DNA of 38,419 nucleotides from Acidimicrobiaceae bacterium (GTDB lineage: Bacteria > Actinomycetota > Acidimicrobiia > Acidimicrobiales > Bog-793): the NCBI GenBank assembly GCA_027335685.1, contig DAHWHN010000001.1, positions 1 through 38,419 of the forward strand, in the 5' to 3' direction. Shown piece after piece: positions 1,141-11,866 of the stretch (position 1 is the stretch's first letter; each line of letters opens with the position of its first letter). Position numbers and translations under genes: made by a program. A model generated the notes under the pieces. That model ran no database searches. It saw only the letters and a program-made list of their open reading frames with translations, and was not told where the DNA came from.

Positions 1141-2260
1141 CGAGCCAGAGGTGCGGCGTGGCCTCGTCGGGGTCGTCGCGGACACGACGGCGATCTCGAT
1201 GGTCAATCCGGAGACCAACTCGCTGCTGTACCGGGGGTACCCCGTCGAGCAGCTGGCCGCGTCCTGCAGCTTCGAGGAGGTCGCCTACCTGATCTGGCAC
1301 GGCGAGCTACCCGACGACGGGCAGCTCGCCGAGTTCGTCGGGCGCGAGCGCGCCGCGCGCGCCCTCGATCCGCGCCTCGCCCGCGTGCTCGCGGACCTGC
1401 CGCTCGACTGCCACCCGATGGACGTGCTGCGGACGGCGGTGAGCCTCATGGGCGCCGACGACCCGTCCGAGGACGACCCGTCGCGCGAGGCCGACCTCGC
1501 GAAGTCCGTCGGGATGCTCGCCAAGCTCCCGACCGTCGTCGCGGCCGAGATGCGCCGGCGCCGGGGGCAGGAGCCGATCGCCCCGGATCCCGACCTCCCG
1601 TACGCGGAGAACGTCTTCCACATGTGCTTCGGATCCGTCCCCGAGCCGGAGGTCGTCCGCTGCCTGGCCGTCTCGCTCGTGCTCTACGCCGAGCACAGCT
1701 TCAACGCCTCGACCTTCACCGCCCGGGTCGTGACCTCGACGCTGTCCGACATCTACAGTGCGGTCACCGCGGCGATCGGTGCGCTCAAAGGTCCCCTGCA
1801 CGGCGGGGCGAACGAGGCGGTCATGGCGATGCTCGACGAGATCGGCGACCCGGAGCGCGTGCAGTCCTGGCTCGCAGATGCCCTGGCGGGGAAGCGGAAG
1901 ATCATGGGCTTCGGCCACCGCGTCTACAAGCACGGCGACAGCAGGGTGCCGACGATGCGGGCTGCGCTCGCCGAGCTCGCCATGTCGCGTGGCGGCGCGG
2001 TGCTCATGGACCTCTACGACCGTCTCGAGGCGGCGATGCTCGACGCGAAGGGCATCCACCCCAACCTCGACTACCCGACCGGGCCCGCCTACAAGCTGAT
2101 GGGCTTCGACATCCCGACCTTCACGCCGCTGTTCGTCATGAGCCGGATCACCGGGTGGACGGCCCACGTCATGGAGCAGCGCGCGTCGAACTCCCTGATC
2201 CGTCCCCTCTCGAGCTACGTCGGGCCTGCGGAGCGGTCCGTCCCCGTGGCGCGCGCCTGA
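1130..2260 (+). CDS. prpC: 2-methylcitrate synthase / citrate synthase
   Basis: 376 residues, type II (short) citrate synthase family, condensing propionyl-CoA (or acetyl-CoA) with oxaloacetate. The catalytic triad is visible: H224 in GPLHGGANEA (221-230), H263 in FGHRVYKHGD (261-270) and D319 in HPNLDYPTG. H189 in AEHSFNAS is the conserved oxaloacetate-side His. The start is the ATG at 1130, preceded by a purine-rich GGACAGGGAGGGG and lying inside the end of prpB. Substrate preference cannot be read reliably from sequence, since actinobacterial members are often bifunctional; its place after prpB argues for methylcitrate synthase. The 3' end overlaps the convergent ROK gene by 46 bp. Confidence 0.92.
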   Translation: MGVDEPEVRRGLVGVVADTTAISMVNPETNSLLYRGYPVEQLAASCSFEEVAYLIWHGELPDDGQLAEFVGRERAARALDPRLARVLADLPLDCHPMDVLRTAVSLMGADDPSEDDPSREADLAKSVGMLAKLPTVVAAEMRRRRGQEPIAPDPDLPYAENVFHMCFGSVPEPEVVRCLAVSLVLYAEHSFNASTFTARVVTSTLSDIYSAVTAAIGALKGPLHGGANEAVMAMLDEIGDPERVQSWLADALAGKRKIMGFGHRVYKHGDSRVPTMRAALAELAMSRGGAVLMDLYDRLEAAMLDAKGIHPNLDYPTGPAYKLMGFDIPTFTPLFVMSRITGWTAHVMEQRASNSLIRPLSSYVGPAERSVPVARA

Positions 2261-3528
2261 GGGCGTCGCGTGCGGACGCGTGAGGGTCCGGACGGCCAGC
2301 TGCCGGGGTCTTCGAGGACGGCCCGGATGGCAAGCCCTGCAGCGCCCCGGACTGCCGCGCGGGCTCCGAGCCTCGAGACGGCGACTCCGGTCGGTGCCCA
2401 CGAGTAACTGACCACACGGTCCGCGAGCTCGCGCGCGAGCGCCGGGAGGAGCCACGTGGCGACCTCCGCGTAGACGCCGCCGAGCACGACCGTCGGGAGG
2501 TCGACGACGTTGACGACGCCCGCCAGCGCGACGCCGAGTGCCGAGCCGGCCCGGTCGAGCGCAGCTTGGGTCGCTCGGTCCCCGGCGGCAGCCGACGCGA
2601 GGAGCGCGCGGACCGGATCGGTGGACGGCTGCCGTGCGGTGTCGATGCCCGCCGCCGCGAGCACCGCCTCCTGTCCTGCGACCTGCTCGAGGCAGCCGCG
2701 AGCGCCGCAGGTGCAGCGAGGACCGCCTGCGTCCACCAGGACGTGGCCGATCTCTCCGGCGAGGCCCGCGGCGCCTCCCCAGAGCGCGCCGCGGATGACG
2801 ATACCTGCCCCGACGCCGATCTCGCCCGAGACACGCACGAAGGTGTCGAGGTCGGTGCTGTCGCCGAACCAGAGCTCCGCGAGCGCGGCGAGGTTCGCCT
2901 CGTTGCCCGCGCCGACCGCTCCGAGGGGTCGGGCGCTGCGCGCGCTGATGATCTCCCCGACGCGCGCCGCGACCTCGAGCCCTTCGAGCCAGCGCAGGTT
3001 CGGCGCTCGTCGCAGGACGCCGTCGACGTCGACCAGACCAGGGAGCGCGACATGGAGCCCGGCGACGGGCCGGGACGACATCGCCGGCGACGCGAGGAGC
3101 GAGTCGGCGAGCCTGGCTGCCCGTTCGAGCACGTCGCCGGGTGCGACCGTCCTGTTGTCGCCCGGCAGGGCGGCGAAGGACCGGACCTCTCCGGCGAGGT
3201 CGACGATGCAGGCGGAGACGTAGTCGACGTTGATCTCGATCCCGAGGCCCACCGGTCCCGTCGAGGCGAGGCGCAAGGGATTGCCCGGCCGGCCGACGAG
3301 GCCGCGGTCCGGGTCGCACTCGACGACGAGACCCGTCGCGATGAGCGTGTCGGCGAGGCTCGACACCGTCGCCTTCGTCAGCCCCGTGCGCTCCGCGAGC
3401 TGCGCCCGGGCGCCGCGGCCTCCGGCGGCGATCTCGCCGAGCACGAGGGCGAGGTTGCTCCTGCGCAACAGCTCGGCTCGGGCCGGACCGCCGGTCGGGT
3501 GGCCGGGCCGGCCCCAGCCGCGGCCCAC
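2215..3528 (-). CDS. xylR: ROK-family transcriptional regulator, probable xylose repressor
   Basis: 437 residues. The N-terminal winged helix-turn-helix (about 20-75, including AQLAERTGLTKATVSSLAD) is followed by a ROK sugar-kinase-like domain. The ROK zinc site is complete: H262 and the cluster RCTCGARGCLE (271-281) give Cys272, Cys274 and Cys279. ROK repressors of this build bind operators near pentose genes and are released by the sugar. It is the last gene of the xylA-xylB-ROK operon: its GTG start (3528) directly abuts the xylB stop (3529), so the repressor would be made with the enzymes. A probable target palindrome lies in the promoter at 6212-6226. The C-terminal ~35 residues are basic and partly antisense to the end of prpC. 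The symbol reflects the likely role, not a verified orthology. Confidence 0.87.
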   Translation of the reverse strand: MGRGWGRPGHPTGGPARAELLRRSNLALVLGEIAAGGRGARAQLAERTGLTKATVSSLADTLIATGLVVECDPDRGLVGRPGNPLRLASTGPVGLGIEINVDYVSACIVDLAGEVRSFAALPGDNRTVAPGDVLERAARLADSLLASPAMSSRPVAGLHVALPGLVDVDGVLRRAPNLRWLEGLEVAARVGEIISARSARPLGAVGAGNEANLAALAELWFGDSTDLDTFVRVSGEIGVGAGIVIRGALWGGAAGLAGEIGHVLVDAGGPRCTCGARGCLEQVAGQEAVLAAAGIDTARQPSTDPVRALLASAAAGDRATQAALDRAGSALGVALAGVVNVVDLPTVVLGGVYAEVATWLLPALARELADRVVSYSWAPTGVAVSRLGARAAVRGAAGLAIRAVLEDPGSWPSGPSRVRTRRPQARATGTDRSAGPT

Positions 3529-4986
3529 CTAGACCGGCGGTGCCGCGAGGAGGCCGTTGCGCTCCCGGTCGAGGGTGTGCGCTCGCGCAGCCGCGTAGGC
3601 CTCGCGGACCTGGGGGTGAGGCTCGGCCTCGTAGGTCGCGGTCCCCGGCTGCGGCCAGCTCGGAGGCTCCTCGGACGGCGCGAGTGCCCACGCGGCCTGG
3701 CGAGCTGCCCCGTCGGCGACGTACTCGCCCGGCGGCGGTACGACCACGGCGTGGCCGAGGATGCTCGGGGCGATCCGCCGGACCGCGTCGGACCTGCTCG
3801 CACCGCCGACGAGCAGGATCCTGCGGACCGGCACCCCGAGGTCGCGCAGCGCGTCGAGCCCGTCGGCGAGGCCGCAGAGCATCCCCTCGACGGCGGCGCG
3901 TGCGAGGTGTGCCGGCGTCGTGTTCTCGAGGTCGAGCCCGTGCAGGGCCCCGGTCGCGTCGGGGCGGTTGGGCGTCCGCTCGCCTTCGAGGTAGGGCACG
4001 AGGACGAGCCCCCCGGCGCCCGGCGGGGCAGCGAGCGCGAGCGAGGAGAGCTCGTCCTGGTCGACGCGCAGGATCGCCGCGATCCGCTCGAGGACCCGCG
4101 AGGCGTTGACCGTGCAGACGAGCGGGAGGTGACGACCCGACGCGTCGGCGAAGCCGGCGACGGTCCCGGTGGCGTCGACGACGGGGAGGTCTGCGACGGC
4201 CGAGACCGTCCCCGAGGTGCCGATCGACACGACGACGTCGCCAGGTCCCGCGCCGACTCCGAGCGCCGCAGCGGCGTTGTCGCCGGTGCCGGCCGCGAGC
4301 ACGGTCCCCGAGGCGGTGCGTCCCGCCTGGCCCGACGGGTCGACGACCCTGGGCACGTGGGGCCGGCTTCCGAACGCGCGTTCGAGCAGGTCGAGGCGGT
4401 ACGCACCGGTCGCCGCCGACCAGTACCCGGTCCCGCTCGCGTCGCCGCGGTCGGTCGTGATCCCGGTGACGTCCGGGCGCCGCGCGGCACCGGCGAGCTG
4501 CCACGTGAGCCAGTCGTGGGGGAGGCAGACGGCCGCCGTCCTTGCTGCGAGGTCGGGCTCGTGCTCGGCGATCCAGCGCAGCTTGGTGACGGTGAACGAG
4601 GCCACGGGAACGAGCCCGACCGCCTCGGCCCACGCGCGCCGGCCCTTTTCGCCTCCGCCGAGCTCGGCGACGAGGTCCTCGGCCGCCCGCCCCGAGCGCA
4701 GGTCGTTCCAGAGCAGGGCCTGCCTGACGACGCCGCCGTCCTCGCCCAGGCAGACGGCTCCGTGCTGCTGGGCGGCGACGCCGCAGGCGGCGACGTCGTC
4801 GAGGCCTCCCGCCCGCTCGGACGCGAGGACGAACGCCTCGAGCCACGCCGCCGGGTCCACCTCGGTCCCCGGGGGGTGTGGCGCGCGCCCCTCGCGCACG
4901 AGACGACCGGTCGACGCCTCGCGCACGACGATCTTGCATGCCTGGGTCGAGGAGTCGACCCCGGCGACGAGCGTCGCTGGCGGCAC
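3529..4986 (-). CDS. xylB: Xylulokinase
   Basis: 485 residues, FGGY carbohydrate kinase family. It phosphorylates D-xylulose to xylulose 5-phosphate with ATP. Seen in the sequence: [10 protein letters not shown] at 9-18 (first phosphate loop, D11), the substrate segment AAQQHG at 71-76 with LWNDLRS at 92-98, the catalytic Asp236 in [10 protein letters not shown], and the ATP-binding SIGTSGT at 254-260. The length is normal for xylulokinase. The GTG start at 4986 lies 3 bp past the xylA stop, which supports an operon with xylose isomerase and makes xylulose the expected substrate. Other FGGY substrates are possible but less likely here. Confidence 0.93.
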
Positions 4987-4989
4987 CGA

Positions 4990-6177
4990 TCAGCGAGCGC
5001 CGAGGAGGTGCTCGATGGCGAGCTGGTCGAGGTGCGCGAAGCCGTAGCCGTGCGCCGCCGCGGCGGCGACGTCGAAGGACTCGAACGCGCTCGAGTCGGC
5101 GAGCAGGTCCCGGTAGGACTCGCCCGGTGCGAGCGTCGGCGTGGACAGCTCCCCGACCTGGCTCGCACGCAGCGCCTCGGCGACCTCCGGGTCGGCCCGG
5201 AACGCCGCGGCGCGCTCTTTGAGGAGCAGGTAGGTCCGCATGTTCGACGCGGCCGACGCCCAGACGCCGGACATGTCCTCCGTGCGCAGCGGCTTGTAGT
5301 CGAAGTGCCGCGGCCCGTCGTAGGCCGGGCCGCCGCCCGGTGCGCCGTTCTCCAGGAGGTCGACGAGGAAGAACGCGCTGAGAAGGTCGCCGTGGCCGAA
5401 GACGAGGTCCTGGTCGAACTTCGGTCCGTGCTGGCCGTTCAGGTCGATGTGGAACAGCTTGCCGTGCCAGAGCGCCTGGGAGATGCTGTGGACGAAGTTC
5501 ATGCCCGCCATCTGCTCGTGGCCGACCTCGGGGTTGACGCCGACCATCTCGTGGTGCTCGAGGGCCGAGATGAACGCGAGCGCGCTGCCGACCGTCGGCA
5601 AGAGGATGTCGCCCCGGGGCTCGTTGGGCTTCGGCTCGATCGCGAAGCGGATCGTGTAGCCGCGCTCGAGCACGTAGGTCGCGAGCAGGTCGATCCCTTC
5701 CCGGTAGCGGTCGAGGGCGGCGCGGACGTCCTTTGCCGAATCGGTCTCGGCTCCCTCGCGGCCGCCCCAGAAGACGTAGGTCGTCGCGCCGAGCTCCGCG
5801 GCGAGGTCGAGGTTGCGCATCACCTTGCGCAGGGCGAACCTGCGGACCCCCCGGTCGTTGCTCGTGAACGCCCCGTCCTTGAACATCGGGTGCGTGAACA
5901 GGTTCGTCGTCATCATCGGGACGACGAGACCGGTCGCGTCGAGCGCCGCGCGGAAGCGCTTGACGTGCTGCTCGCGTGTCGCCTCGTCGGAGCCGAAGGG
6001 GATGAGGTCGTCGTCGTGGAACGTCACGCCGTAGGCACCGAGCTCGGCGAGGCGGTTGACGGACTCGACGGGATCGACCGCTGCCCGGGTCGCGTCGCCG
6101 AAGGGGTCACGTGCCTGCCATCCGACGGTCCAGAGGCCGAAGGAGAACTTGTCCTCGCGTGTGGGTGATCCAGGCAT
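4990..6177 (-). CDS. xylA: Xylose isomerase, class I
   Basis: 395 residues, which fits the actinobacterial class I enzyme (~388). It interconverts D-xylose and D-xylulose (and glucose/fructose) with two divalent metals. His54 and Asp57 are in [11 protein letters not shown] (52-62). The metal and substrate residues Glu181 and Lys183 are in [11 protein letters not shown] (180-190), at the same numbers as in Streptomyces enzymes. [13 protein letters not shown] and HIDLNGQ supply further ligands. The ATG at 6177 is preceded by GAGGAGCC and then the promoter/operator described separately. It is the first gene of the xylA-xylB-ROK operon. No transporter for xylose is in the window. Confidence 0.97.
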
Positions 6178-6211
6178 GTCGGCTCCTCGTCGGGCGTCGG
6201 GTGTCGAGTTC

Positions 6212-6226
6212 GTTCAATACCTGAAC
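6212..6226. promoter_or_regulatory. Candidate operator palindrome in the xylA / FAH intergenic region
   Basis: A perfect inverted repeat, GTTCA-N5-TGAAC. It overlaps the -10 box of the minus-strand xylA promoter (6224-6229) and the -35 position of a possible plus-strand promoter for the FAH gene. An extra GTTC half-site sits just left (6208-6211). Position and symmetry suit a dimeric repressor, most simply the ROK protein encoded in the operon. The protein-site pairing is inference. Confidence 0.6.
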
Positions 6227-6252
6227 TTAAAGCGGCTAGAGTCCGGAGTCAA
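6224..6252 (-). promoter_or_regulatory. Predicted sigma-70-type promoter of xylA-xylB-ROK
   Basis: Read on the minus strand, a TTGACT -35 box (6252-6247) is followed after exactly 17 bp by a TAAGTT -10 box (6229-6224). This is an unusually good match for such a GC-rich genome. Transcription would begin near 6217, about 40 nt before the xylA ATG and inside the palindrome at 6212-6226, so a bound repressor should block initiation. Confidence 0.65.
6237..6242 (+). promoter_or_regulatory. Possible -10 box of the FAH-family gene
   Basis: TAGAGT, with a weak -35-like TTCAAT at 6213-6218 (18 bp spacer) that lies inside the palindrome. If real, the two divergent promoters overlap face to face and share one operator. 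The -35 match is poor, so this is tentative. Confidence 0.3.
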
Positions 6253-6315
6253 GCGGCCGGCGTCGCGCCTGGCCGTCGTGGTGCCCGGTTCGGGGCGCCC
6301 TGGAGAGGGGGAAGA

Positions 6316-7272
6316 GTGCATCTCGTGCGCTTCCGCCGCCGCTCGGGCGGCGACGTCGAGGTCGGGAGGGTGACGCCAGGCGGCCTGACGCCGCTCGGCG
6401 CCACGCTCGCGGAGCTGTTGCGGTCGGATCTCGCCGAGCTGCGCGCCCGGTGCGCGGCCGTGGAGCGCTCCGACGCGTCCCCGGAGGTCCTGGCGGCCGG
6501 GAGCTGGGACGAGCTCCCGCCGGTCGAGGCGCGCATGGAGGTCTGGGCGGCAGGCGTGACCTACGAGCGCTCGCGCGACGAGCGGATGAAGGAGAGCGCG
6601 ACGGCCTCGTCGGTCTACGACGACGTCTACGACGCGGACCGGCCGGAGATCTTCTTCAAGTCCGTGCCGTGGCGGGTCGTCGGGGACGCCGAACCCGTCG
6701 GCATCCGCTCGGACAGCACGGTCGACGTCCCCGAGCCCGAGCTCGCCGTCGTCGTCTCGGCCTCGGGCGAGATCGTCGGCTACACGGTGTGCGACGACGT
6801 CTCGTCCCGCAGCATCGAGGGTGAGAACCCCCTCTACCTGCCGCAGGCGAAGCTCTACACGGGCAGCTGCGCGCTGGCTCCCCGGATCCGGCCCGCGTGG
6901 GAGGTGCGGGACCCCTACGCGCTGGGCATCGCGGTGCGGATCACTCGGGGCGGTGCGGTGGTCTACGAGGCGGCCGGCTCGACGTCCCAGCTGCACCGGC
7001 GGCTCGACGACCTCGTGTCCTGGCTCGTGCGGGAGATGGAGTTCCCCGACGGCGTCGTGCTCTCGACCGGCACCTCGCTCGTGCCCGACCTGCCGTTCAG
7101 CCTGGCTCTCGGCGACGTCGTGCAGATCGACATCGAGGAGGTCGGCACCCTCGTCAATCCCGTGGCCCCGGCTCGCGCGGCCGCCGGCGGGGCGGCTGCC
7201 CGTCGGCCGGCGCGAGCCGGGCGGGGCGAAGGGCCTGCGAGCGGGAGGAGCGCGACCGCGAGCAGGACATAG
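6316..7272 (+). CDS. Fumarylacetoacetate hydrolase-family protein, possibly 2-keto-3-deoxy sugar-acid dehydratase
   Basis: 318 residues. The FAH fold is recognisable from GVTYERSRDERM (80-91), the metal-binding EPEL (140-143) and CDDVSSRSIEGEN (159-171), and the closing segment IEEVGTLVNPV (273-283). The N-terminal part MHLVRF... and the YERSRDERMKES region resemble the subgroup that includes 2-keto-3-deoxy-D-arabinonate dehydratase of oxidative pentose pathways. Its position divergent to xylAB fits pentose or pentonate catabolism, but the substrate is inferred. The GTG start at 6316 follows GGAGAGGGGG. After residue 283 comes a ~35-residue Ala/Arg-rich tail unlike the family, produced by reading into the 3' end of the opposing gene; the two overlap by 310 bp. 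Confidence 0.8.
   Translation: MHLVRFRRRSGGDVEVGRVTPGGLTPLGATLAELLRSDLAELRARCAAVERSDASPEVLAAGSWDELPPVEARMEVWAAGVTYERSRDERMKESATASSVYDDVYDADRPEIFFKSVPWRVVGDAEPVGIRSDSTVDVPEPELAVVVSASGEIVGYTVCDDVSSRSIEGENPLYLPQAKLYTGSCALAPRIRPAWEVRDPYALGIAVRITRGGAVVYEAAGSTSQLHRRLDDLVSWLVREMEFPDGVVLSTGTSLVPDLPFSLALGDVVQIDIEEVGTLVNPVAPARAAAGGAAARRPARAGRGEGPASGRSATASRT

Positions 7273-10885: not shown

Positions 10886-11866
<981 letters not shown>

Follow-up and report, generated by a model that had tools for sequence, protein, structure and literature searches.

The XylR operator of M. smegmatis has been mapped by footprinting, with the key bases TTATGTTC-N7-GAACAAAA. It serves both xylR and the divergent xylA cluster, and the regulation is negative and lifted by D-xylose (PMC10138657). 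The XylR operators of Bacillus follow the consensus TTNGTTT-AAACNAA, with the core GTTT-N7-AAAC (PMC9104551), and for RokB of Streptomyces the site TTTGTTC-N11-GAACAAA is given (PMC4856308). Published acidimicrobial XylR sites were not found in a literature search. The window analysed here, i.e. the whole stretch of 38,419 nucleotides, is contig C90 of a 2.39-Mb assembly (2,390,366 bases; 153 contigs; 82% complete), and contains an element reading TTAAGTTC-N7-GAACGAA. As the core of this element equals the footprinted M. smegmatis site and resembles the Bacillus operators, it is assigned as a predicted XylR/ROK operator. The probability that 6209-6229 is the operator of an autoregulated xylAB-xylR operon, lying across the xylA -10 and start region, is estimated at roughly 0.85. 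The relevant features are:

2215-3528, minus strand: ROK-family regulator, proposed XylR (winged helix and ROK domain)
3529-4986, minus strand: xylB, xylulokinase-like FGGY kinase (TIGR01312, 371 bits against a cut-off of 380)
4990-6177, minus strand: xylA, xylose isomerase (TIGR02631, xylA_Arthro, 688 bits against a cut-off of 447)
6183-6188, minus strand: xylA ribosome-binding site GAGGAG, read from the sequence
6209-6229, minus strand: predicted XylR/ROK operator, TAAGTTCAGGTATTGAACGAA, core GTTC-N7-GAAC (footprint across relatives and literature match)
6224-6229, minus strand: xylA -10 hexamer TAAGTT, which overlaps the operator's left half
6237-6242, plus strand: candidate -10 of the FAH-family gene, TAGAGT (weak; recognisable -35 absent)
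6247-6252, minus strand: xylA -35 hexamer TTGACT, conserved, 17 nt from the -10
6316-7272, plus strand: FAH-family gene with a GTG start at 6316 (PF01557)

The xylA, xylB and ROK genes lie back to back on the minus strand, and an autoregulated xylAB-xylR operon is ordinary in kind. XylB narrowly misses the xylulokinase cut-off and is named xylulokinase-like because of its genomic context. The ROK protein matched PF00480 as well as MarR_2/HTH_IclR in a profile search, all above cut-off. It carries the motifs CxCGxxGCxE and ExGH, and the kinase DxGxT-like motif is absent at its expected place. At least one further ROK paralog is encoded in the assembly (contig C25; 37% identity). Genes for methylisocitrate lyase (prpB) and 2-methylcitrate synthase (52-2260) converge on the ROK gene in the window, and G001 and G002 likewise have relatives of both next to ROK; in G026 a prpB relative precedes xylA. 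Further along the window, an aldo-keto reductase gene (10886-11866) closely resembles the gene that G012 (L098) carries divergent to its xylA.

A sequence-only reading of this DNA had proposed that a single palindrome, GTTCA-N5-TGAAC at 6212-6226, controls two divergent promoters, one for xylAB-ROK and one for the FAH-family gene. Reading of the sequence confirms the palindrome, and GTTCAATACCTGAAC is the sole exact GTTCAN5TGAAC in the 2,390,366-base assembly. The minus-strand promoter had been called near-consensus: TTGACT-N17-TAAGTT is indeed present and its -35 matches at 5/6 positions, but the -10 agrees with TATAAT at T1, A2 and T6 only (3/6). Under a stricter sigma-70 scan this place does not come up as a promoter. 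On the plus strand TAGAGT is located at 6237, as had been stated; from the operator to the FAH start, that strand has no other TANNNT. A 26-bp imperfect palindrome at 6232-6257 (10/13 pairs), spanning the -35 of xylA and the candidate -10 of the FAH-family gene, was also considered and is attributed to chance; it is equalled in 3.5% of shuffles and has no counterpart at that place in the two siblings.

Phylogenetic footprinting of the xylA upstream region, which the sequence-only reading had put forward, was carried out among 197 genomes, of which 28 contain XylA relatives and 12 contain ROK relatives at E ≤ 1e-60. The pattern AAGTTCAN5TGAACNAA (14 fixed bases) was compared with 29 xylA upstream regions from the 28 genomes (G032 twice), two C-terminal XylA fragments (G002:C296 and G004:C102) being excluded because the upstream region is lacking. 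The predicted operator was found upstream of xylA, with 0-2 mismatches of 14, in 13/13 genomes with a xylA-associated ROK ortholog, window included; these genomes are related and hence not independent. Twelve of them bear a ROK relative at that threshold, and the thirteenth is G034, whose ROK gene is truncated at the contig end. The operator lies 15-91 nt from the xylA start, and a TTGNC-type -35 accompanies all 13 operators at a spacing of 17-18 nt (18 nt in G049). The 13 upstream regions were also shuffled at the mononucleotide level; of 3,900 shuffles none reached 2 mismatches, the best never falling below 3. Read towards xylA, the aligned consensus is TTGaC-N17-TAAGTTCA-N5-t.AAC.AA (TTGAC-N17-TAAGTTCA-N5-TnAACnAA). 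The bases kept across relatives are GTTC and AAC, and the palindrome's inner A and G are variable. The right half-site is degenerate in 5/13 genomes (G030, G034, G004, G031 and G049); GTTY-N7-RAAC with an NAA flank is present in strict form in 8/13, including the window, and with one free base in 12/13.

The operator overlaps the xylose-gene promoter and co-occurs with the ROK gene. xylA and ROK share a contig in 10 of the 12 ROK-bearing genomes, as well as in G034; the exceptions are G002, where xylA is split between two contigs, and G001, where ROK is on another contig. In G012 the ROK gene directly follows xylA, with no xylB between them. Among the other 16 xylA regions, G022 has a site at 1 mismatch, G003 and G032a are at 3, and the remaining 13 show 5-7. 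G022 is without adjoining ROK or xylB (genome 84% complete). In two of those 13 cases (G124 and G184) a distant ROK gene (35%) does occur on the stretch around xylA, evidently of another specificity.

Searches were extended beyond the xylA upstream regions. The exact pattern TAAGTTCAN5TNAACNAA gave 9 matches in the 197 genomes, 9/9 before xylA, with 5 matches for the reversed control; the pattern is derived from the very sites recovered, and the informative part of this result is the lack of other matches. No second XylR regulon site was detected in the window's own assembly, which has one match at 0 mismatches and none at 1 or 2. Matches at ≤3 mismatches numbered 8 + 12, as compared to 6 + 4 for the reversed control. 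A genome-wide XylR regulon is not supported by these match counts, which give no second site. The sole symmetric 3-mismatch match outside the window (G000:C124) lies ahead of a MarR-type gene rather than a sugar gene. This locus (L156:1501-1520) holds a perfect GTTCG-N5-CGAAC palindrome, located after an argS-like gene, which is perhaps the MarR-type regulator's own site. A looser class-wide pattern yielded 7 further matches in 395 genomes, with no xylA within 1.5 kb on either side.

We infer that the operator is bound by the operon's own ROK protein, with xylose as the ligand and repression as the sign. Without pentose, a XylR dimer would occupy the xylA -10 and start region and block RNA polymerase, and xylA, xylB and xylR would consequently stay low. 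Xylose, the presumed inducer, would free XylR from the operator, creating an autoregulated switch.

The divergent gene encodes an FAH-family protein in which E111, E140, E142, D161 and K179 correspond to Glu114, Glu143, Glu145, the position-164 acid and Lys182 of the enzyme described in PMC9795676; position 164 is printed there as Glu, yet is Asp when counted in the aligned chain. All five residues are invariant in six relatives. The relatives of the gene adjoin IlvD/EDD or enolase-type sugar-acid dehydratases, an aldehyde dehydrogenase or a GntR gene. Such dehydratases and an aldehyde dehydrogenase are encoded elsewhere in the genomes of G000, G001 and G002, and an oxidative pentonate route, with putative substrates, is therefore possible in these genomes. 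The protein likely serves in 2-keto-3-deoxy-pentonate dehydration, in a Weimberg-type oxidative route. Loci of this enzyme were compared in named genomes; of the 80, only three have a xylA relative on the stretch covered, namely the two siblings and L047. The latter, a Chloroflexi MAG (1627-6648), carries xylBA and, divergent from it, a LacI-type gene with a relative of the same dehydratase behind it; this is an independent co-location of isomerase and oxidative genes. G015 (L159:6730-7540) was considered as a second genus with an intact xylA//FAH pair and rejected as a remnant: its FAH-family gene, divergent from xylA, is without the catalytic RPEIFFK segment, a GGT-repeat stretch being present instead, and the frame also shifts near the contig end. 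In G012, where the xylulokinase gene is absent from the xylA-ROK operon, a gene resembling xylB is found within a few kb of the FAH-family gene (G012:C133; L182:2385-3836); it is divergent from a DeoC/LacD-type aldolase and without the operator. Xylulokinase and an FAH-family gene also occur together in the pen operon of Rhodococcus (PMC11998424).

The intact divergent xylA//FAH pair with the operator is present in 3/3 genomes of the genus and was seen in this genus only. The sequence-only reading had staked its proposal on the palindrome being retained in relatives with the same gene pair, and all three pairs keep the site. In each of them the only FAH-strand TANNNT between operator and gene adjoins the operator. 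In the window this -10 is 10 nt away from the GAAC arm. In the siblings, which have TAAGAT at the corresponding place and no -35, the distance is 7 nt, the -10 being 3 nt closer to the operator. A XylR dimer bound at 6209-6229 would span about -40 to -20 of an FAH start near 6249, and the overlap of the promoters would prevent two polymerases from binding simultaneously.

Several alternatives to these assignments were weighed. A chance palindrome without function would fit the fact that, as a lone sequence, the element is unremarkable: about 0.44 perfect palindromes with 5-bp arms and a 5-nt loop are expected per 138 nt in the window, where the operator pattern at ≤2 mismatches is at background level, even if 6212-6226 is the only such palindrome there with ≥3 A/T in the arm. 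Its significance comes from the footprint across relatives, present in 13/13 genomes and placed exclusively before xylA, by which chance is effectively ruled out. That a different regulator, and not the operon's ROK protein, binds the palindrome is improbable. Binding of ROK to the site is itself a prediction, and the C25 paralog offers another candidate; however, the site tracks the xylA-associated ROK gene, its core equals a footprinted XylR site, and 13 of the 16 xylA regions without an adjoining ROK of this type have ≥5 mismatches. The proteins point the same way. Alignment of 10 xylA-associated ROK proteins (G001, G031 and G034 left out) revealed a helix GLTKATVS that is identical in 7/10 and differs by one residue in G010, G026 and G049; from its place in the winged-helix domain, this segment is the presumed recognition helix. 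The corresponding segment of the paralogs differs, reading GVTRPTLT (G000) and GLARPTLT (G005). For the operator of the xylAB-xylR operon, then, the xylAB-ROK half of the earlier proposal is strongly supported by conservation, by the position on the xylA -10 and start, and by the match to published XylR sites.

The other half, shared control of a second promoter, stands on the FAH side as plausible from geometry, since the operator covers the FAH -35 region. Within the genus, there is about an even chance that the FAH-family gene is co-repressed by XylR and weakly expressed when xylA is on. That the operator acts on xylA alone, with the FAH-family gene a mere neighbour that has a weak promoter of its own, constitutive or differently regulated, has a likelihood just short of even. 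The site is kept before xylA in genomes where other genes lie upstream, so that xylA by itself accounts for its conservation, and the candidate FAH -10 lacks a -35 and shifts by 3 nt. Furthermore, FAH relatives in 10 other contexts show no operator at ≤2 mismatches; three 3-mismatch matches (one in L180, two in L186) are not directly before the FAH gene. Conversely, in 3/3 genus genomes the only FAH-strand TANNNT sits beside the operator, where a bound dimer should impede the promoter, and xylBA and the same enzyme are co-located independently in L047. The fuller proposal, in which one XylR dimer on one operator would switch two overlapping, mutually exclusive promoters, for the xylAB isomerase route and a Weimberg-route dehydratase, is tentative and somewhat on the doubtful side. 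If true, both routes would open in response to pentose, in a ratio determined by competition between polymerases. If the FAH-family gene is co-controlled, the locus would compactly illustrate the coupling of an isomerase and an oxidative pentose route to one signal; a literature search for a single repressor governing both xylA and an FAH dehydratase found no such case.

Among the described systems, the M. smegmatis operator shares the GTTC-N7-GAAC core, the A/T-rich flanks and the location adjoining xylA. It differs in lying between xylR and the xylA cluster, whereas xylR comes last in the xylAB operon of the window, where the divergent gene instead encodes an FAH-family enzyme; the M. smegmatis XylR is not described as a ROK protein in the text compared (PMC10138657). 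The Streptomyces xylA//xylB-xylR arrangement likewise has actinobacterial xyl genes under XylR with divergent promoters in one intergenic region, but the text compared names neither an FAH-family gene nor the operator sequence (PMC6149001). The enzyme of PMC9795676 has the FAH fold, and all five equivalent residues are kept in the window protein, the gene of which adjoins an isomerase-route operon and not an oxidative cluster. In Bacillus and Paenibacillus, XylR is a ROK repressor of xylAB acting on TTNGTTT..AAACNAA with the same N7 spacing, although with GTTT/AAAC in place of the GTTC/GAAC of the window and with another operon order (PMC9104551, PMC2873477). The consensus obtained here provides a testable XylR operator for an uncultured acidimicrobial lineage, tied to both the mycobacterial and the Bacillus sites.
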